DNA of 27,697 nucleotides, taken from JAGLHV01 sp023143305 [NCBI: Clostridia bacterium]. Lineage in GTDB: Bacteria > CBDUZB01 > JAGLHV01. The position numbers and the translations under genes are program-made. Positions 4,850 to 25,851 of the stretch are shown in pieces (position 1 is the first letter of the stretch; each line of letters begins with the position of its first letter). The DNA lies in assembly GCA_030637025.1 (NCBI GenBank), contig DAOVVV010000032.1:1-27697 (forward strand), written 5' to 3'. Below the pieces are notes generated by a model. It was not told the origin of the DNA. It searched no databases and was given only the letters and a program-made list of their open reading frames with translations.

Positions 4850-4882
4850 AACTGTCTTTTGTGAGACAGTTCTTTTTATTTT
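4850..4882 (+). terminator. Intrinsic terminator, possibly a leader attenuator
   Basis: A perfect 8-bp stem (AACTGTCT / AGACAGTT) with a 6-nt loop is followed by CTTTTTATTTTATT. It may end transcription from the upstream GGDEF gene. It is only about 40-50 bp ahead of the next start codon and downstream of the only promoter candidate, so it could also act as an attenuator in the leader of the primase-like gene. Confidence 0.7.
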
Positions 4883-4922
4883 ATTAAAAAACAAAAAAGG
4901 ACAGATTAAGAAGGGTGATTAT

Positions 4923-6311
4923 ATGTTGAACTTGGCAGATTTTTATTTCCATCCCGAAGTGCGCAAAAGAATTATGGAATATTGTGGAGGGGAAAATGAT
5001 TTTTCTTCTTTTACAGCTGCAACGTTAGTCGGTTATGGAGAAAAATGGGTAGGTAAAAATTATGAACAACTTGGATTCCTTCCTCAAGAGGGGTTTGAGC
5101 AAATATTAGGAAACGGATGGGATATTTTTCGTTCGAGCTGGGATAATATGAGCAGTTTGGGGATTTTAGATGTAGAATATTTTAATTTGGATTATCCCGG
5201 AGAGATATATCTTCATCCTTACCGGACATTTAAAAAATTAGAGTTATTATATAAAACAATCTTAAGTGTTTTTTATAAATTTAACATTATCCCCTTAGTC
5301 ATTATGACTGGTCAAGGTTACCATTTTTCCTTTCGTTTACCTCAAAACAACAGAATTCATCAGAAAATTGAAGAAATAGGCAATATTCCATCTTCTGTAA
5401 AAAATAAATATATTGATTTAAAAAACAGGGGATTGTGTTTTTCTCTTCGTCAGGGGAAAGCTTACGAAGGGATGGGCAGGTTGATGGAATATATGACTCA
5501 TCTGGTTATTAAAAAAATGCGGAATAGTCTAATACCTGTTGTGTGCACTGATTTAGCCGTAGGAATGACTGATTCAGTACGGGAAGCGATTTCTCTGGAT
5601 TTATCTATGTATGGAGATCCCCTACATTTTCGACATATTCGTTGTCCGTTTAGTTCCTATCAAAAACACAGAAATCAGAAATTTCGAATTGGAGAATTAG
5701 CTACAAAAAGTCCTGTTCAGATTACTCTTCCCAGGACTGAAACAGTAAAACTGGAAGATTTATGCCAATGGAAAAATGATTTTCGAAAAGCCAGTGACTA
5801 TGCATCTAAAGTGGAAACCCGGATTCCGGATGTATCCATAGGATATGATAATTTAATTAGAAGTTACAAGCGTTCACAACTTTATCAGTTTCATAAGTAT
5901 TTTGATTCCCAGGAGCATGATTTGCCTTCTGTATGGGGGAAAACTTATGATCGTTTTGATTTAGGCAAGCTTCCTCCTTGCATAGCACATGCGCTTTCTT
6001 TTCCCAATGATAATTTATTAAAACCGACTAATATACAGGCTATTACGCGGGTATTGCTAAAGCAAAGATGGCATCCAAAACATATTGCCGGTCTTATTCG
6101 TTCTAAATATGAGCGAAATCATAGTTGGGGGGATATATGGATAAGAAATGATGCTAGTTTGCGTGCTGATTTTTATGTTCGGCTTTTTGCAGGATTATTG
6201 AGTGATGGAACGGATCAGGAAGAAGATTTAAATTGTACTTCTTATCAAAAGAAAGGGTATTGTTGGAAGAAGTGGTGTGGATATAATTTAGAGCATTATA
6301 AAATAAATTGA
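4923..6311 (+). CDS. Archaeo-eukaryotic primase-like protein with a PriL-like four-cysteine C-terminal domain
   Basis: 462 aa; the start ATG has AAGGGTG just upstream. I read it as a single-chain primase or primase-polymerase. The central region carries the order of motifs expected of the AEP superfamily: an acidic pair in LDVEYFNLDYPG (D83, E85), TGQGYHFSF with H134 (the sGxxxH-type motif), and LDLSMYGDPLHFRHIRCPFS, with D226 followed by R240-x-P242-x-S244 and K248. The last 110 residues start at LPPCI (C353) and end in NCTSYQKKGYCWKKWC (C438, C447, C452). One isolated cysteine before a helical stretch, then three clustered ones, matches the plan of the iron-sulfur C-terminal domain of primase large subunit PriL. 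No phage or plasmid genes flank it. Motif reading is by eye, without alignment. The function is inferred, and a zinc rather than Fe-S site is possible. Confidence 0.6.
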   Translation: MLNLADFYFHPEVRKRIMEYCGGENDFSSFTAATLVGYGEKWVGKNYEQLGFLPQEGFEQILGNGWDIFRSSWDNMSSLGILDVEYFNLDYPGEIYLHPYRTFKKLELLYKTILSVFYKFNIIPLVIMTGQGYHFSFRLPQNNRIHQKIEEIGNIPSSVKNKYIDLKNRGLCFSLRQGKAYEGMGRLMEYMTHLVIKKMRNSLIPVVCTDLAVGMTDSVREAISLDLSMYGDPLHFRHIRCPFSSYQKHRNQKFRIGELATKSPVQITLPRTETVKLEDLCQWKNDFRKASDYASKVETRIPDVSIGYDNLIRSYKRSQLYQFHKYFDSQEHDLPSVWGKTYDRFDLGKLPPCIAHALSFPNDNLLKPTNIQAITRVLLKQRWHPKHIAGLIRSKYERNHSWGDIWIRNDASLRADFYVRLFAGLLSDGTDQEEDLNCTSYQKKGYCWKKWCGYNLEHYKIN

Positions 6312-6377: not shown

Positions 6378-7223
6378 ATGGAAATAGGTATTTCTACAGG
6401 GATTATTTATAATTATAATTTATTGGAAAATCTTTTTTTATTTAAAGAAGCGGGTTTTGATAGTATCGAAATTTGCTTTAATCCCCGATTGAATAAAGAT
6501 AGGTTTTATCAATTTAATTATCAAAACTGGCTTTATGTATATGAACTTAAAGATAAATTAAAAAGGCACGAATTGAAGGTGCATTCAATACATGCTCCTT
6601 ATTCCGGCACTTTTGACATTTCTGATTTAAGTGAGCGGCAGCGTATAAATACAGTGCATGAAATAAAACAGATTATCGATGTTTTAAGAGTTTTGGACGG
6701 AAGCAATTTGATTCTTCATCCTACAATAAAAGAAATTTGTGAAAATAATTTTGAAGAAAGAGGTAAATGGTTTAAACAGGTAACAAAAAGCCTTAAAAGT
6801 ATTGTAGCTTACGGTGAAAAAAAGGGGATTAAGATAGCAATTGAAAATATGCTGCCCCATCTTTTTTTTGGGGACTTTAATGATTTATTAAATTTAATCA
6901 ATCAGTTTGATTCTGAAAATCTAGGAATTTGCCTGGATACTTCCCATGCTAATTTAAGTAAAGGAGTTCTTGAAGCAGTAAGAAAATTCGGCCCAAAAAT
7001 TATTTCTTTACACATTTCTGATAATTATGGTAATGAAGACAGTCATTTTCCTCTGGGTGAAGGGAGTATCAACTGGAATGAATTTTTACATGAACTATTT
7101 AAAGTAAATTTTAAAGGGGTTTTTATGTTAGAAATTCTAAAAGAAGTAAAAGAAGAAGAGCTTCCTTCAATGTTAAAGAAAACATATGAAAATACAAGAA
7201 GATTTGTGGAGGGAAAACTTTGA
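6378..7223 (+). CDS. Sugar phosphate isomerase/epimerase-like TIM barrel (AP endonuclease 2 family)
   Basis: 281 aa, a complete xylose-isomerase-like TIM barrel (PF01261 type, as in IolE). The barrel strands are recognisable in order: GISTGI, DSIEICF, LKVHSIHAPYSG, LILHPT, IKIAIENM, LGICLDTSHAN, IISLHISDN and GVFMLEIL. The expected divalent-metal ligands are present as Glu in IAIEN, Asp and His in CLDTSH, His in SLHISD and Glu in MLEIL. DNA endonuclease IV shares the fold, but the sequence looks closer to sugar isomerases. Its TGA overlaps the TTG start of hisS by four bases, so the two are probably co-translated. The substrate cannot be inferred from the neighbours. Only a weak SD-like GTGGA precedes the ATG. 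Confidence 0.8.
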   Translation: MEIGISTGIIYNYNLLENLFLFKEAGFDSIEICFNPRLNKDRFYQFNYQNWLYVYELKDKLKRHELKVHSIHAPYSGTFDISDLSERQRINTVHEIKQIIDVLRVLDGSNLILHPTIKEICENNFEERGKWFKQVTKSLKSIVAYGEKKGIKIAIENMLPHLFFGDFNDLLNLINQFDSENLGICLDTSHANLSKGVLEAVRKFGPKIISLHISDNYGNEDSHFPLGEGSINWNEFLHELFKVNFKGVFMLEILKEVKEEELPSMLKKTYENTRRFVEGKL

Positions 7224-16287: not shown

Positions 16288-17082
16288 GTGTATATAAACA
16301 CAGAGGCTTTTGTTTTAAAACACTATGACTTAAAAGAATCAGATAAAATTATAACTTTATATACCAGGGATTTAGGTAAAATTCAGGCGGTAGTAAAAGG
16401 AATAAGAAAGGCAAAAAGCAAATTAGCCGTCACCATGGAACCTTTTACGTATATTGATTTAACTCTTTATCGTAAATCTCAAAATAAATTGTTTACTATT
16501 ACCAATGGTAATATTAAATATTCCTTATATAAGATAAAAGAAGATTTTTTGCGGATAGTTTATGGGGATTATTTGTTGGAGTTGGTAGATAAATTAACAG
16601 AGACAGAGGAAAAAAATCGTGCACTTTTTAACCTGATAAAAGATTTTCTTTTTTTAATGGAATATAAAAGTGTGGAACTTATTCTGTGGTGTTTTAAAAT
16701 AAGATTTTTAAGTTTAATCGGTTATCAACTTTGTTTAGATATTTGCTCTCTTTGTGGAAAAAAAGTTCAGCCTTTTAAAAAAGGAATGGATTGGAAAATA
16801 GGATTTAGTCCCAAAGAAGGGGGGGTTCTTTGTTATCAGTGCAGAGGTATTTGCAATTACAAAGAGGATATTTCTCCGGGAGTAATAGAAGTGTTTAAAA
16901 AACTTTTAAAAATAAATTTAGATAAAATAGATTATTTGAAGTTTTCAGGTAAAATGCGTGAAGAAGTAAGACATAGTTTACAATATTTTTTGGCATATCA
17001 TTTATCCGGGGAGTTGAAAACACAACAATTCATTGAAAAAATTTCCCGCTATAAAGTATATGGTCAAGGGGTAAGAATATAA
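16288..17082 (+). CDS. recO: DNA repair protein RecO
   Basis: 264 aa recombination mediator that loads RecA with RecR and anneals ssDNA. It starts at GTG 16288, with AAGAAGG nine bases upstream. The N-terminal OB fold is clear (INTEAFVLKHYDLKESDKI followed by TRDLGKIQAVVKGIRK). The middle contains the zinc finger as two CxxC pairs: C153/C156 in CSLCGKK and C182/C185 in CYQCRG. The length is typical. It precedes glyQS as in Firmicutes-like clusters. The 98 bp upstream (16189-16287) hold no recognisable feature beyond the SD. Confidence 0.95.
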   Translation: MYINTEAFVLKHYDLKESDKIITLYTRDLGKIQAVVKGIRKAKSKLAVTMEPFTYIDLTLYRKSQNKLFTITNGNIKYSLYKIKEDFLRIVYGDYLLELVDKLTETEEKNRALFNLIKDFLFLMEYKSVELILWCFKIRFLSLIGYQLCLDICSLCGKKVQPFKKGMDWKIGFSPKEGGVLCYQCRGICNYKEDISPGVIEVFKKLLKINLDKIDYLKFSGKMREEVRHSLQYFLAYHLSGELKTQQFIEKISRYKVYGQGVRI

Positions 17083-20273: not shown

Positions 20274-20302
20274 GGAGGTAATAAGTGAAAGGAGAAAAAA
20301 TG
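20274..20302 (+). promoter_or_regulatory. Two alternating ribosome-binding sites and start codons
   Basis: GGAGG (20274-20278) sits six bases before GTG 20285, and AAAGGAG (20288-20294) sits five bases before ATG 20300 in the same frame. Both starts are well supported, giving products that differ by five residues. The ATG gives the more family-like N terminus. Confidence 0.6.
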
Positions 20303-21598
20303 AATATTTTTGATAAATGTGACAAGTTTACAGTTGCGAAAGATGTAATGGCTACAGGATGTTATCCTTATTTCCGTCGGGTTGAATCAGGACAGGATCC
20401 GGAAGTCATTATTGAAGGGAAAAAAGTAATAATGATGGGGTCGAATAACTATCTTGGGTTAACTTCTTATTGGCGGTTAAAAGCATCATCTATTCGGGCA
20501 ACCCAGAAGTATGGGGTGGGTTGTGTTGGTTCCCGGTTTTTGAATGGGACCCTGGATATTCATGAAGAATTGGAAAAAAAATTAGCTACATTTGTAAGAA
20601 AAGAAAAAGCGATACTTTTTTCTACAGGAATGCAAGCAAATTTAGGTGCTCTTTCTTCGTTAGTTGGAAAGAATGATACAGTAATTACGGATAAATATGA
20701 CCATGCCAGTATTATTGATGGCTGCCGGCTTTCTTTTGGACAGATGAAAAGATTCAAACATAATGATATGCAGGATTTGGAGAGGGTTTTAATTCCTTTA
20801 AAAGATATGACAAAGTTGATTGTTGTTGATGGTATTTTTAGTATGGAAGGGGATATTGTTAATCTTCCTGAAATTGTAAGATTAGCTAAGAAATATAATG
20901 CTCAGGTTATGGTAGATGATGCTCATTCCTTAGGGGTTTTGGGAAAACAGGGAAGAGGGACTTGTGAATATTTTGGACTGACTGACGAAGTGGATATTAT
21001 TATGGGAACATTCTCCAAGGCTTTTGCTTCTGTAGGGGGATTTATTGCTGCCAATGACTCAATAGTTCATTATATTAAACATAATGCGCGAGCCTTAATT
21101 TTTAGCGCCAGCCTTCCTCCCAGTAATGTGGCTTCGGTGATGGCAGCTTTGGAAGTAATTAAAAAAGATAATTACCGAATTAAACGTTTGTGGCGTAACA
21201 CACACAAAATGATGAAAGGGTTTAAAAATTTAGGGTTTGATACCGGAACGAGTGATACTCCTATTATTCCCATTGTTGTTGGTGATGATTTTAAAGCTTT
21301 TCAAATGTGGCGCATGCTTTTTGATCTGGGAATCTTTACTACCCCGATAGTTTCTCCGGCTGTCCCTCCGGGAAGAGCTCTTATTCGGGTAAGCAATATG
21401 GCTACACATACGGATAAACAGTTAGATAAAGTATTAAAAATTTTTGGAGAAGTAGGAAGAGAGCTGGGTATTATTCCGTCCGTTAACAAAAAGGGAACCT
21501 GTTCCTCCGTAAACAAAAAAAGGTTTCGTTTCTGGGAAAAAATAAATAGGAATATGATAAAAAAATGGATGAAAAGATTGTGGAATATTAAATCTTAA
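20300..21598 (+). CDS. PLP-dependent alpha-oxoamine synthase (KBL / serine palmitoyltransferase-like)
   Basis: 432 aa from ATG 20300 (437 from GTG 20285). It is a fold-type I PLP enzyme that condenses an amino acid with an acyl-CoA. Landmarks are GSNNYLGLT, GVGCVGSRFLNGT, DKYDHASIIDG, VDDAHSLGVLG (PLP-ring Asp and His) and GTFSKAFASVGG, where K240 forms the Schiff base. KBL, BioF, HemA and SPT share this pattern. The opening FDKCDKFTVAKDVMATG and YPYFRR look to me more like SPT-like relatives than E. coli Kbl, but the substrate is not decidable. No tdh, sphingolipid or biotin genes are near. After IIPS there is a basic, tryptophan-containing tail of about 37 residues with a duplicated SVNKK, possibly membrane-associating. 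Confidence 0.85.
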   Translation: MNIFDKCDKFTVAKDVMATGCYPYFRRVESGQDPEVIIEGKKVIMMGSNNYLGLTSYWRLKASSIRATQKYGVGCVGSRFLNGTLDIHEELEKKLATFVRKEKAILFSTGMQANLGALSSLVGKNDTVITDKYDHASIIDGCRLSFGQMKRFKHNDMQDLERVLIPLKDMTKLIVVDGIFSMEGDIVNLPEIVRLAKKYNAQVMVDDAHSLGVLGKQGRGTCEYFGLTDEVDIIMGTFSKAFASVGGFIAANDSIVHYIKHNARALIFSASLPPSNVASVMAALEVIKKDNYRIKRLWRNTHKMMKGFKNLGFDTGTSDTPIIPIVVGDDFKAFQMWRMLFDLGIFTTPIVSPAVPPGRALIRVSNMATHTDKQLDKVLKIFGEVGRELGIIPSVNKKGTCSSVNKKRFRFWEKINRNMIKKWMKRLWNIKS

Positions 21599-21642
21599 TG
21601 CTAAAAAAGTAAGTAATAAAAATCTTTTACAAACCTTGATTA

Positions 21643-21656
21643 TGTAAAATTTTACA
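21643..21656. promoter_or_regulatory. Perfect 14-bp palindrome, candidate operator
   Basis: TGTAAAATTTTACA is exactly self-complementary and ends seven bases before the -35 box of the next promoter. A further half-site TTTTACA lies at 21625-21631. The position suits an activator, or a repressor that hinders polymerase binding. AT-rich palindromes can arise by chance, so this is a moderate call. Confidence 0.5.
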
Positions 21657-21663
21657 AAAAGAA

Positions 21664-21691
21664 TTGACAAATGAATAAAAAGTGATATTTT
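21664..21691 (+). promoter_or_regulatory. Promoter of the FHA-PP2C-kinase operon
   Basis: TTGACA at 21664-21669, a 16-bp spacer and TATTTT at 21686-21691 with a TG giving an extended -10 (TGATATTTT). Transcription would start near 21698, about 30 nt before the ATG. A strong SD (AAGGAGG at 21714-21720) lies in the short leader. Confidence 0.65.
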
Positions 21692-21728
21692 ATATAGATA
21701 AGGAAAAAATCAAAAGGAGGGTAAAAGG

Positions 21729-23849
21729 ATGGATGAAGATGTAAGAGGGCATGAAGAAGAAATGAACGAAGAAGAGCAGGGGGCAGAAGTAGATGAAAAA
21801 ACCTGTTTGGAAAGCAGTCCCAAAATAACAGTTAAAAAAGATACGGAAACAATATTAGAATATGAAATACTGAAAGATTTGGTAATTATTGGCCGGAGAG
21901 CAGGGAATGATATAGTCCTTGATAATCGCAAAGTATCCCGTAAACATGCTCAGATAAAAAGAGAAGGAGATAATTTTATTATAGAAGACTTACAGAGTAC
22001 AGGCGGTACAGAGATTAATGGAGAAAAAATAACGTCACGACAAATATTTACCGGGGAGATCATTAAAATAGGAGACTTTGAATTGCACTTTAATTCGGGT
22101 ATAGAAGGGGAAGAAAAAACAGTTTTTGAGGAAGATGATAAAACAATATTTGATGACGATAAAACGGTTTTCTATGAAGAAACGGTAGCTAAATTAATTG
22201 TTGAACGTTCGGTAAATCTTCAGGGGGAAATTAGTATAGAAGGGGAAGCTGTAATCGGACGGGGGGAAGAAGCTACTATTCAATTAGAGGACCAGCGTGC
22301 TTCCAGGGAACATTGTAAAATTGCGTTAGTAGATAGTAATTTCGTTATTACAGATTTAGAAAGTAGTAATGGTACTTATGTTAACGGGGAAAAGATAACT
22401 GAAAAATCCCTGGAAAATGGAGACAAAATTCAAATTGGTGATGCTGTTTTTGAATTTCAAATGGAAAAAGGCGTTAAAGGCGGAGCTAAAAAATTTATTG
22501 GAAAGCAACTGGTTAAAAAGGTAGGTTTAGTGGCATTAGGTGTATTTGTTTTTGTTGTGGTTTTTCAATTGGCCAATAGGGAAAAGCCGCATTCCGTAGT
22601 TCTTAGCCAAATATGGGAAAAACAAATCAAAGGGGAAATTCGGACCTCTCCTGCTATCGGAGATTTAAATAATGATACTTTTAACGATATTGTAGTGGGG
22701 GATACCGAAGGATTTATTTATGCCCTGGATGGCCGTACAGGAGGTAGTATCTGGAATAAACCGTATACTGCCGGACGGCCTATTCTTTCTTCTCCTGTAT
22801 TGGGTAATATTAATCATGAAGGTGGTAATTTAGATGTTATTGTTGGGGCAGAAAGGAAACGAATGCTTTCTGTAAAGGACCGGATGGATAGTTCCCTAAC
22901 AGGAAAAATATACGCTATTGATGGAGAAAAAGGGGATATGATTTGGGAAAGCAGTGTAGTTAAAGGGGGAATTGTTTCATCTCCGGCATTGGTAGATTTA
23001 AATACAGATAAAGTCCTGGATGTAGTTGTGGGGTCTAAGGATAGATTTGTTTATGCTCTGGATGGGAAACAGGGAGGAGAAGTCTGGAATTTTGAAACTA
23101 AAGGGGGAATAAGTGCCACCCCTTCTTTGACCGATATTGACAATGATGGGATTCTTGATGTAATTATTGGTTCTCAGGATAATATTTATGCTTTATCAGG
23201 TGCAAACGGGAAAAAATTATGGCTTTTTCATCACCTGGGAAATCCATCCTCGGCTGCTATAGGAAAATTTGATGATGATGAGATTGAAGATGTAGTTGTT
23301 GCTTTTGCCGGAGAAATAGTAGTGCTTAACGGAAAAACCGGTGCGATTATTTGGGAGTGGAAAAGTCCTGTGTTATTAACAGAAGAAACATTATTGCCCA
23401 TTGCTCCGGTTTTAGGCGACCTTAATAATGATGGCGTTTTAGATGTTGTCTGTGGTTCGGATAAGGGGCACGTTTATGCTGTAAATGGGGTAACCGAAGG
23501 GGAAAAATATCTCTGGGATTTTAATATGGGAGAAGAAATTCCGTCTTCTGCTGCACTTTTTGATTTTAACGGTGACAAAAGTCTTGATGTAGCTGTTATT
23601 TCTCAGACAGGCGTTATTTATTTAATTAGCGGAAAAGACGGACATTTGTTAGTTCAATTTGATATTAATGCGCCGGTGATAAGTTCTCTGGTTATTGCTG
23701 ATGTCAATGCTAATAAGATAGCCGATTTAGTAATTGGAACGCTGGACGGTAAAATTATAGTTGTAGAATCAAATGCAAAATGTAAAGAGAAAGAAATTAT
23801 CTGGGGTGTTTTAGGGGGAAATGAATTACATACTTCACTGAAGAAGTAA
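21729..23849 (+). CDS. Transmembrane double-FHA protein with an extracytoplasmic FG-GAP/PQQ-like beta-propeller
   Basis: 706 aa. The acidic N terminus is followed by FHA1 (about 45-122; G55 R56, S70 R71, H73, N97 G98) and FHA2 (about 170-240; G177 R178, S192 R193, H195, N214 G215 T216). A single TM segment lies near 264-282, preceded by lysines, so the FHA domains should be cytoplasmic. Outside are eight repeats of the form DLNNDxxxDVVVG, then Y-A-L-D-G, then G-x-x-W, with Ca2+-type acidic loops, forming a beta-propeller. FHA domains bind phosphothreonine. The linker between them holds three EKTVF / DKTIF / DKTVF motifs (T131, T139, T146), and DEKTCL (T25) lies before FHA1. FHA1 has TGGT where an NGT Asn is expected. 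It is first in an operon with a phosphatase and a kinase; an envelope sensor or scaffold is inferred. Confidence 0.88.
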   Translation: MDEDVRGHEEEMNEEEQGAEVDEKTCLESSPKITVKKDTETILEYEILKDLVIIGRRAGNDIVLDNRKVSRKHAQIKREGDNFIIEDLQSTGGTEINGEKITSRQIFTGEIIKIGDFELHFNSGIEGEEKTVFEEDDKTIFDDDKTVFYEETVAKLIVERSVNLQGEISIEGEAVIGRGEEATIQLEDQRASREHCKIALVDSNFVITDLESSNGTYVNGEKITEKSLENGDKIQIGDAVFEFQMEKGVKGGAKKFIGKQLVKKVGLVALGVFVFVVVFQLANREKPHSVVLSQIWEKQIKGEIRTSPAIGDLNNDTFNDIVVGDTEGFIYALDGRTGGSIWNKPYTAGRPILSSPVLGNINHEGGNLDVIVGAERKRMLSVKDRMDSSLTGKIYAIDGEKGDMIWESSVVKGGIVSSPALVDLNTDKVLDVVVGSKDRFVYALDGKQGGEVWNFETKGGISATPSLTDIDNDGILDVIIGSQDNIYALSGANGKKLWLFHHLGNPSSAAIGKFDDDEIEDVVVAFAGEIVVLNGKTGAIIWEWKSPVLLTEETLLPIAPVLGDLNNDGVLDVVCGSDKGHVYAVNGVTEGEKYLWDFNMGEEIPSSAALFDFNGDKSLDVAVISQTGVIYLISGKDGHLLVQFDINAPVISSLVIADVNANKIADLVIGTLDGKIIVVESNAKCKEKEIIWGVLGGNELHTSLKK

Positions 23850-23916
23850 ATAAGAGTAAAAGGCAAAAAATAATTCCCTGATTTTTATTATCACTTAAAA
23901 AGGAAAAACAAACAAA

Positions 23917-24690
23917 ATGAAAATTTCTGCTTTTAGTATTACTGATTTAGGAAGAAGACGTTCCTTAAATGAGGATTTTTGTATTTGCGACAATGAGAGA
24001 CAAATATATTTGGTTGCTGATGGAATGGGAGGAAGGGAAGGGGGAGAAGTGGCAAGTAGAATGGCGGGAGAAACTTTTCTGGCAAAAATTTCTCCCTTTT
24101 TGGAGGATGAAGATGTGACTTTCCCTTTTGAAATAAAAGAAGAAAGGGATTTTTTTTCTGCAATTATTAAATATGCTATGGAAGAGGCTAATACTGCAGT
24201 GTATCAGCATAGTTTAAATGAAACTTCAAAAAAAGGAATGGGAACGACTTTTACAGCAGCGATTCTTTATGACGGAAATCTTTATGTGGGCCATATTGGG
24301 GACTCAAGATTATATAGAATTCGCCAGAGGAATATTGCTCAACTCTCAGAGGATCATACGTTAGTACAACAAATGATAAAAGAAGGGCGTCTTGATGCTA
24401 AAGGAGCCCGAAATCATCAAAAAAAAAATGTAATTACCCGTTCCCTGGGACCAAAAAAGAAAATTAAACCCGATATTTTTTGTGAACGAATTATTCCCGG
24501 GGATATTTATTTGCTTTGTAGTGATGGTTTGTACCAGATGTTAGAAGATGAAGAATTATTCGGGGAACTTCTTTCTCTTGGAGAGAAGGATTTAGAAACT
24601 GTAGGTAAAAATCTTATTTTTATGGCTAATGAAAATGGAGGTAAGGATAATATCACTTTACTTCTTTTTAGAGTAGAGGAAGAAAATTAA
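23917..24690 (+). CDS. PP2C-family Ser/Thr protein phosphatase
   Basis: 257 aa cytoplasmic metal-dependent phosphatase, a compact bacterial PP2C (PstP/Stp type) without TM helices. The metal-binding motifs are all present: RRRSLNED (D20), LVADGMGG (D35), GTTFTAAIL, VGHIGDSRLY, LCSDGLYQM and NGGKDNITLLLF. It should reverse phosphorylation by the kinase encoded six bases downstream, acting on the FHA protein and others. An AAAGGA lies upstream at rather long spacing. The pairing of PP2C and kinase genes is common in bacteria. Confidence 0.95.
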   Translation: MKISAFSITDLGRRRSLNEDFCICDNERQIYLVADGMGGREGGEVASRMAGETFLAKISPFLEDEDVTFPFEIKEERDFFSAIIKYAMEEANTAVYQHSLNETSKKGMGTTFTAAILYDGNLYVGHIGDSRLYRIRQRNIAQLSEDHTLVQQMIKEGRLDAKGARNHQKKNVITRSLGPKKKIKPDIFCERIIPGDIYLLCSDGLYQMLEDEELFGELLSLGEKDLETVGKNLIFMANENGGKDNITLLLFRVEEEN

Positions 24691-24696
24691 TATAAA

Positions 24697-25851
24697 ATGC
24701 TTAAGGAATTAGGAAAATATAAAATAATTAAACAACTTAGTACAGGAAGCGCAGCTAATATTTATTTAGCAGTGCAAAAGAATCTGGAAAGACAGGTTGT
24801 TATTAAACAGTTAATGCGGGAATTTTCTCTGCATAAAAAACTGGTTGCCCGCTTTGAACAAGAAGCAAAGATAATTTCTTCCCTGCGGTATGATTCTATT
24901 ATTCATATTTACGATTACTGGAAAAAAGGTAATTCTTACTATATTGTGATGGAATACGTTTCCGGTAAGACCCTTAAAGAAATCCTCTTTCATTCTTCCT
25001 CCTTTCCTTTACCGGAAGGGTTAATCCTTTTCTACGAAATTATTAAAGCTCTGGAATATGCTCATAATCAGGGAGTTGTTCACCGTGATTTAAAACCGGC
25101 TAATATTATGATTTCTGAAGAGGGAAGGTTGAAAATTTTAGACTTTGGTATTGCTCATGTTGTGGAAAAAAATATGACGAACATGGGTGTAATTATCGGA
25201 ACTTATTCTTATATGTCTCCGGAACAGGCGGTGGGGAATAAAATAGATCACCGTTCGGATATTTTTTCTTTAGGGATAGTAATGTATGAACTTTTAAGCG
25301 GGAAAAAGCCTTTTAAAAAAGATGAACAGGGAGAAGTGACTGAGAAAATAATTAACCAAAAACCCCTTTCCGTAAGGAAAATTAATTCCCAAATTCCCTG
25401 GGGGGTAGGGAGAATTATAAAAAAATGTTTGAGAAAGAAACCGAATAAACGATTTCAGAATATGGGGCAAATTAAAAAAAAGTTAGAAAAATATATTCGT
25501 AAATTACCCCTGGACCATCAGTCAGTGCTAAAGAAATTTGTAGAAGATTCAACCCCATTACCTGACCAAAAGACCATTTTAATGGAGAAAATAGAAAAGA
25601 AAGAAAAAAAAGAGAAAAAAACAAAGAAGAAAAAAAGTAAAATAAAAGAAAAAATAGCAAAGCTTAAAGCTTTTTTCCAAATAAAAAATAAACCGCGTTT
25701 AAAATTTTTCATAATAACATTATTATTATTTATTCTCTTTGTCGAGGTAGAATTTATCTTTAACTATTTTAATATTACCTTTAAGATACAAAAAGAATGG
25801 GTAATATCTTTAGGTAAATGGATTTTTTCCATTATGAAAAAAATTTCCTAA
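24697..25851 (+). CDS. Membrane-anchored Ser/Thr protein kinase (Hanks type)
   Basis: 384 aa. The kinase domain (about 8-270) has catalytic K37 in VVIKQ, HRDLKPAN with D131, DFG at 149-151 and YMSPEQ in the activation segment. The glycine loop is LSTGSAANIY, keeping only the middle Gly; this is atypical, but all other catalytic residues are intact. A lysine/glutamate-rich juxtamembrane stretch (about 298-330) precedes one TM helix (about 337-355). Only about 29 residues follow outside, with no PASTA or other sensor domain. DQKTIL (T293) in the linker repeats the K-T-[VI]-[FL] motif of the FHA protein and is a likely autophosphorylation site. It is translated from the same operon as the PP2C gene. 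External signals may come through the FHA-propeller protein instead. Confidence 0.93.
   Translation: MLKELGKYKIIKQLSTGSAANIYLAVQKNLERQVVIKQLMREFSLHKKLVARFEQEAKIISSLRYDSIIHIYDYWKKGNSYYIVMEYVSGKTLKEILFHSSSFPLPEGLILFYEIIKALEYAHNQGVVHRDLKPANIMISEEGRLKILDFGIAHVVEKNMTNMGVIIGTYSYMSPEQAVGNKIDHRSDIFSLGIVMYELLSGKKPFKKDEQGEVTEKIINQKPLSVRKINSQIPWGVGRIIKKCLRKKPNKRFQNMGQIKKKLEKYIRKLPLDHQSVLKKFVEDSTPLPDQKTILMEKIEKKEKKEKKTKKKKSKIKEKIAKLKAFFQIKNKPRLKFFIITLLLFILFVEVEFIFNYFNITFKIQKEWVISLGKWIFSIMKKIS

Follow-up and report, generated by a model that had tools for sequence, protein, structure and literature searches.

Introduction

Can a bacterial chromosome encode a primase in which AEP-type catalytic motifs and a PriL-like cysteine domain are joined in one chain, and which task would such a protein have in the cell? 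The question is raised by a gene in a 27,697-nucleotide stretch of bacterial DNA, here called the window, for which a sequence-only reading had proposed this architecture and, as possible roles, a repair or restart primase, a domesticated mobile-element primase or an archaeal acquisition. A PriS-PriL fusion is reportedly present in N. equitans. According to the cited part of PMC3973330, the only earlier reports of fusions similar to PolpTN2, the fused PriS-/PriL-like protein of the Thermococcus plasmid pTN2, concerned N. equitans and a provirus of Bacillus. The bacterial AEPs classified in a 2018 survey (PrimPol-PV1-type, PriCT-bearing) were located nearly exclusively on mobile elements, as stated in the section of PMC5862659 used here; further background is found in excerpts of PMC10345425. 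In mycobacteria, Prim-PolC together with LigC fills short gaps in base-excision repair (BER), most efficiently after EndoIV (PMC5663958; also PMC7442782; both in extract). Our analysis identifies the gene as a member of a chromosomal primase-polymerase (Prim-Pol) family in little-known bacteria, which is unnamed in the family libraries searched.

Results and Discussion

Gene and catalytic domain

The open reading frame at 4923-6311 on the forward strand is intact, starts with ATG and encodes 462 amino acids, the coordinates including the stop codon. All motif residues that had been named from the sequence were confirmed at their positions, namely D83, E85, T129, G132, H134, D226, R240, P242, S244 and K248 as well as the cysteines C353, C438, C447 and C452. 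Features of the locus are collected in Table 1. An Rfam scan of the whole window gave no match.

Table 1. Positions of the Prim-Pol gene, its motifs and adjoining features in the window.
Feature	Position	Strand	Evidence
Terminator-like hairpin with T run just 5' of the Prim-Pol gene	4850..4871	+	pattern match only; 1 found versus 1.2 expected by chance
Possible ribosome binding site GAAGGGTG, five bases 5' of the ATG	4910..4917	+	read by eye
Single-chain AEP/Prim-Pol with C-terminal Cys4 helical domain, 462 aa	4923..6311	+	intact ORF; fold, profile and alignment
AEP motif I, D83-x-E85, predicted strand 77-88	5169..5177	+	34/34 rows reaching both residues
AEP motif II, TGQGYH with H134, start of predicted strand 132-140	5307..5324	+	alignment with LigD motif II
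AEP motif III region, D226 to K248, with R237, R240, S244 and K248	5598..5666	+	35/35 rows, five residues
C-terminal half, residues 286-462, predicted helical; assigned to the PriCT/PriL type from its cysteine pattern and weak matches	5778..6308	+	model, profiles
C353 in LPPCI, isolated cysteine	5979..5981	+	28/35 rows
C438-x8-C447-x4-C452 cluster	6234..6278	+	spacing in 26/28 Cys-bearing members
Partner AP_endonuc_2 (PF01261) TIM barrel, 281 aa, nine endonuclease IV metal-ligand positions	6378..7223	+	PF01261, 141.6 bits

The conservation of the catalytic residues was followed in a homologue alignment of 35 rows, one of them N-terminally truncated; the very divergent L044:1587 had been excluded beforehand, and L005, which is cut by a contig end, was left out of the 36-protein set. 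D83, E85, G132 and H134 are invariant in the 34 rows covering these positions, and no row deviates at D226, R237, R240, S244 or K248 (35 of 35). The AlphaFold model of the 462-aa protein (pLDDT 82.9, pTM 0.87) assigns D83 and E85 to strand 77-88 and H134 to strand 132-140, while strand 220-226 ends with D226. Each of these residues therefore sits within a strand or at its border, which is also the arrangement known from AEPs.

A fold search with VIA-align returned Prim-PolC as the top match with Z 17.0 and 3.5 Å over 252 residues, followed by LigD-type polymerases (Z 16.5 to 15.8), CAPP (13.4) and PriS (about 12). All 50 fold matches listed are Prim-Pols or primase-bearing complexes by title, 49 of them at Z of at least 9.0 and pRN1 at 7.8. 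Foldseek gave no match at E ≤0.001, the best reaching E 3.8e-3, and a viral fold library yielded weak matches only, none of them at E 0.001.

Profile-profile comparison by hhalign of the N-terminal half with 20 LigD polymerase domains resulted in P 0.00095 and a score of 32.2, at an HHsuite probability of 22%. This score was reached by none of 100 column-shuffled profiles (maximum 24.8), and 19 unrelated neighbour-gene profiles scored at most 19.7 against LigD. The TGxGYHF block falls on the LigD motif II block, and the relaxed alignment pairs the VLDVEYF strand with the FDLD strand of LigD; in global mode the comparison is weaker (P 0.01). The LigD set was taken from 22 LigD-type loci over the cut-off, of which L093 was dropped for its frame and L103 was unused, and L044:1587 (515 aa, an extreme branch) was excluded from the profile comparisons as well. 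By phmmer and hmmsearch against the PDB sequences, the window protein and three alignments found neither an AEP nor a PriL. PF01896 (PriS) matched neither the window protein nor the family locus in G001-G003, and TIGR02778 (LigD polymerase) gave no match at E 1 in carriers G001-G003 and G021.

Since the invariant residues, the fold match and the LigD profile match are taken together, we regard membership of the first 300 residues in the AEP/Prim-Pol domains as established at the level of sequence comparison and structural prediction; identity as an AEP nucleotidyltransferase is hardly in doubt. The catalytic assignment of the sequence-only reading, including the similarity to AEP profiles that it had called for, is borne out by these data.

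C-terminal cysteine domain

Residues 286-462 are predicted to be helical (pLDDT 83.1, pTM 0.78). The full set of four cysteines is present in 28 of the 35 alignment rows. Among these, the last cysteine is displaced in G262 and the last three are irregularly spaced in G258. The set is absent from the other seven rows, six of which form one supported clade (99/100), the seventh being a long branch; in G216, one of the rows without the set, a tail CC pair aligns to two of the cysteine positions. L049, a copy of L003, was removed before the tree and the copy counts were made. The expected conservation of the cysteines among homologues thus holds for the main group and fails for a side group.

With 85 residues the distance from the first to the second cysteine is close to the 89-90 of PolpTN2-type domains from seven archaeal plasmids, and against the profile of these seven PriL-like domains the LPPCI block outscored 199 of 200 shuffles (P 0.014, over only 10 columns). 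In hhalign global mode the same C-terminal half gave a null result against the archaeal-plasmid PriL-like profile (P 0.74), and a portion of it aligned with PolpTN2 residues 332-390, which lie before the PriL-like part of that protein (P 0.094). The final cluster of the window protein, C-x8-C-x4-C followed by NLEHY, resembles C-x8-C-x3-C followed by NPLQLY in S. solfataricus PriL and C-x10-C-x5-C followed by NPLTYY in P. abyssi PriL. PF04104 (PriL C-terminal domain) gave no match over its curated cut-off. Comparison with short PriL fragments was null, both for a yeast Pri2 fragment, a tiny template against which 51 of 200 shuffles scored as high, and for two archaeal PriL tails (193 of 200 shuffles), likewise tiny templates and poorly aligned by MAFFT. 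A fold search with the C-terminal model returned nothing above Z 3.8 (saposin) and no PriL chain among the matches listed; the pRN1 helix bundle (Z 3.4 and 3.3) and RepB' (2.8) tie with unrelated rows. Absence from this list does not rule a family out.

By cysteine pattern and model, it is plausible that the C-terminal half is a helical domain of the PriCT/PriL type built around a Cys4 metal centre, and it is likely that the four cysteines bind a metal, either as 4Fe-4S or as zinc. Homology to PriL is plausible and unproven, because a PF04104 match and a PriL fold match are missing and the short PriL fragments gave null results; the reading as a PriS-PriL fusion that joins both activities is likewise unproven. 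Of the PriL-like domain proposed from the sequence, the pattern of one isolated and three later cysteines, its spacing and the LPPCI profile score stand, while neither the family model nor the folds listed nor the short PriL fragments gave a match.

Similar to the window protein, PolpTN2 has an AEP part followed by a domain with one plus three cysteines, and the motif I and II regions of both align (P 0.056). In contrast, PolpTN2 is above 900 aa long, contains PriCT-1 and winged-helix domains, is plasmid-borne and shows Q at the position of the histidine in motif II (PMC5862659, in the section consulted); these features are absent here, where the protein has 462 aa and H134 is invariant. With PriS-PriL the window family shares the AEP motifs and the PriS fold, but it lacks matches to PF01896 and PF04104 and co-occurs with DnaG. 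Apart from this, the PolpTN2-like proteins of pEXT9a, pIRI33, pMETVU01 and pAMT7 (L121-L124) show cysteine spacings of 89, 15 and 4, compared to 90, 6 and 9 in pTN2; for three of these four archaeal plasmids the PLSDB table lists no gene under the match.

Distribution of the family

A scan of genome contigs revealed seven family loci, and a whole-genome search found the gene in seven of 98 sampled genomes. With the family profile, 19 of 386 sampled bacterial genomes matched, and 18 convincing carriers were left after G060 had been rejected, its match covering 78 residues at E 3.9e-4. All three genomes searched from the nearest genome's phylum, which belong to one genus, carry the gene, as do two of three from the G032 phylum. 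Among 16 genomes of the phylum to which G075 belongs it occurs in eight, comprising all seven of family f73 and one of another family. DnaG is found in 18/18 carriers (17 over the cut-off, fragmentary in G235), which excludes the Prim-Pol as a replacement of DnaG.

Against Pfam, NCBIfam, PADLOC and PHROG the window protein gave no match up to E 1; one of three other members scanned showed a chance-level PHROG match (E 0.33). No description of the family appeared among the search results listed from the open-licence PMC literature.

Cysteine-bearing and cysteine-less copies occur together in six of the seven f73 genomes. The cysteine-less sister group comprises L042:3048-4343, L043:6353-7645, L063:10004-11299, L077, L079 and L080; in L042 and L063 this copy is flanked by a PIN-PhoH gene and a PHP-domain gene on one side and by a ClpC-like gene on the other. 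Tandem copies were observed at L051:2443-5276 and L044:1587-4475. The L044 pair, the first of which is extremely divergent with 515 aa, may represent a two-subunit form.

Genomic neighbourhood and partner protein

In the window the genes follow in the order DinB, response-regulator diguanylate cyclase, Prim-Pol, TIM barrel, hisS, aspS, PhoH-family gene, HDIG protein and ybeY, with recO further on. The proximity of a DinB polymerase and RecO, to which attention had been drawn earlier, is real (188-1402 and 16288-17082) but does not recur: among 26 other neighbourhood loci compared, DinB was found in one (L052, about 5 kb away) and RecO in none. The order from the Prim-Pol gene over the TIM barrel, hisS and aspS to the PhoH-family gene is found again in a different bacterial family (L058, genome G241) and in L004, L006 and L007, where one or two genes separate aspS from the PhoH-family gene and the names were taken from BLAST clustering. 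In L050 and L052 the family genes were placed by the family HMM, as a simple gene caller had predicted false antisense ORFs over them.

In the window, the next gene downstream in the same orientation codes for an AP_endonuc_2 TIM barrel. This also holds for G001, G002, G003, G021, G135, G241, G262 and G341, which are eight of the 18 carriers and represent six of 12 families. The 18 carriers contain 51 AP_endonuc_2 matches in total, one to four per genome. Under a simple null model with a density of one gene per kilobase, 0.024 genomes with direct adjacency are expected compared to the eight observed; treating the families as independent of one another, this gives P about 2e-14. This count means less if the pair was co-inherited over deep time; the conservation remains. 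We consider a functional link between Prim-Pol and TIM barrel very likely.

The nine metal-ligand positions considered are those of the trinuclear site of E. coli Nfo. Aligned with six true Nfo proteins of the carriers, the directly adjacent TIM barrels keep these nine positions in 9/9 cases, and nine of ten partner-type proteins aligned have all of them. In the partner-type TIM barrel at L042:9607-10569, which lies near the cysteine-less copy without adjoining it, two of the nine are lost. PF01261 is common to the partner and to the endonuclease IV/CbiR proteins, and the endonuclease IV ligand positions are kept in it, while the partners are below the Nfo and CbiR cut-offs (6/6): all six tested are far below the 129.65 bits of TIGR00587 (Nfo), and below the cut-off of every other NCBIfam model matched as well. 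Since a true Nfo over the cut-off is encoded elsewhere in ten of the 18 carriers, the partner was also rejected as the ordinary Nfo of the cell.

G071 and G212 encode an HhH-GPD DNA glycosylase at a distance of a few genes on the downstream side. The corresponding genes are located at L050:13729-14601 and L054:8434-8922, and the family copies at these two loci are sisters in the tree.

Proposed function

Instead of copying the chromosome, the Prim-Pol probably serves to fill or restart damaged DNA, because the four-cysteine tail is conserved and a repair-nuclease-like gene is a frequent neighbour. Among the roles proposed earlier, repair or restart fits best. Our preferred reading, a chromosomal AEP primase-polymerase that acts in DNA repair beside DnaG with an EndoIV-like phosphodiesterase as partner, is tentative and as a whole stays just below even confidence. 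The same caution applies to short-gap repair as the main role, to which we give slightly less than an even chance. D83, E85 and D226 would hold two metals and catalyse nucleotidyl transfer, and the Cys4-stabilised C-terminal domain, with 4Fe-4S or zinc, may grip the template or the primer end, as is thought for PriCT/PriL domains. The EndoIV-like TIM barrel encoded downstream would open or clean a damaged 3' end, to which the Prim-Pol could then add one or a few nucleotides.

This repair reading draws on the likeness to Prim-PolC and the LigD polymerases, which provide the best folds (Z 17.0 and 16.5), show profile similarity over motifs I and II and are chromosomal too. EndoIV is moreover the working partner of Prim-PolC in mycobacterial BER (PMC5663958, in extract). 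Also in favour are the cysteines kept or lost as a set, the presence of DnaG, the adjacent TIM barrel with its EndoIV ligand positions, the HhH-GPD glycosylase genes and the core chromosomal surroundings. The window family differs from both by its extra helical Cys4 domain and by the missing TIGR02778 match (G001-G003, G021). Further points against repair are that Ku is present in one of 18 carriers only, that no DNA ligase was found among the neighbours annotated, which are a part of all neighbours, and that ten of 18 carriers have no adjacent TIM barrel. The TIM barrel, which scores below the Nfo cut-off and has the uncharacterised MJ1311 and then sugar epimerases as its best solved relatives, may moreover not act on DNA at all. 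Against gap filling in particular stands the observation that PriCT/PriL-type domains usually accompany priming (parts of PMC5862659 and PMC4434180).

A wider interpretation would see in the family a single-chain PriS-PriL-like Fe-S primase, native to and vertically kept in several candidate bacterial phyla beside DnaG, which forms a two-gene repair module with the EndoIV-like phosphodiesterase and is the cellular bacterial counterpart of the archaeo-eukaryotic primase. We hold this to be doubtful.

As PriCT/PriL domains go along with priming, the strongest rival is a repriming or restart primase. In the manner of eukaryotic PrimPol or PriSL, it would begin primers de novo at stalled forks or beyond lesions, and its Cys4 domain would bind either the initiating nucleotide or the 5' end of the primer. 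An AEP part followed by a helical cysteine domain is the layout of priming enzymes, of which PolpTN2 has primase activity (PMC3973330, in the part cited), and the PriL C-terminal domain has been proposed to aid primer initiation (PMC4434180, in extract). The cysteine spacing, similar to that of archaeal PriL, and the presence of CAPP and PriS among the fold matches point in the same direction. The best fold matches, however, are gap-filling repair polymerases, and the partner among the neighbours annotated is an EndoIV-like protein and not a helicase, so that we judge repriming to be unlikely as the main role.

It is rather improbable that the gene is a domesticated replication primase of a mobile element, kept as a bystander or spare replication initiator. 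The distribution over 18 of 386 sampled bacteria is patchy, as this origin would suggest, and published PriCT-bearing bacterial AEPs are nearly all on mobile elements, as far as the consulted section of PMC5862659 reports. But no relative of the window protein was found in the phage, plasmid and IMG/VR collections, nor of the family alignment in IMG/VR, of one divergent, cysteine-less member among the phages or of one divergent member among the plasmids. Furthermore, the core-gene surroundings are common to different bacterial families, and the gene is present in every genome searched of its phylum (3/3) and of family f73 (7/7). The chromosomal location outside any phage or plasmid, which had been suggested from the window, agrees with these results.

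Quite improbable is also that the AEP fold serves a reaction outside DNA repair, e.g. RNA end repair or the synthesis of a small nucleotide product, with the TIM barrel as a sugar- or nucleotide-metabolising partner. The nearest solved relative of the TIM barrel is the uncharacterised MJ1311, followed by IolI and sugar epimerases; among the NCBIfam models it scores highest, yet below the cut-off, with that of the cobamide phosphodiesterase CbiR. Several copies of the Prim-Pol gene adjoin glycosyltransferase, DUF374 or tRNA-synthetase genes, which also fits such a reaction. Opposed to it are the complete AEP catalytic set with a C-terminal layout of the DNA-binding type and the nine EndoIV ligand positions kept in the TIM barrel, whereas IolI has altered zinc binding according to a title in the reference list of PMC7733943.

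A Prim-Pol of defence or CRISPR adaptation is highly improbable: CAPP, with fold Z 13.4, has a PriCT-like C-terminal domain with conserved cysteines (PMC8211822, in the part cited), but PADLOC was negative for 4/4 family members, no cas gene was found among the annotated part of the neighbours, and the N-terminal TPR domain of CAPP_A, for which the window protein has no room, and its cas neighbours were not seen for the window family.

With a chromosomal Cys4 AEP and its EndoIV-like partner, base-excision or restart repair in bacteria would reach further than the LigC/LigD systems. PriCT-type bacterial AEPs in print are nearly all mobile-element-borne, while the window family is chromosomal, absent from the libraries searched and found beside DnaG in several small phyla. 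Its compact single-chain proteins lend themselves to studies on the function of PriL-type cysteine domains, because versions with and without the cysteines coexist in the f73 genomes mentioned above.

At 20285-25851 the window further contains a BioF/Kbl/serine-palmitoyltransferase-like gene, followed by ORFs that on visual inspection resemble a protein with FHA repeats, a phosphatase of the PP2C type and a Ser/Thr kinase, possibly a signalling cluster.
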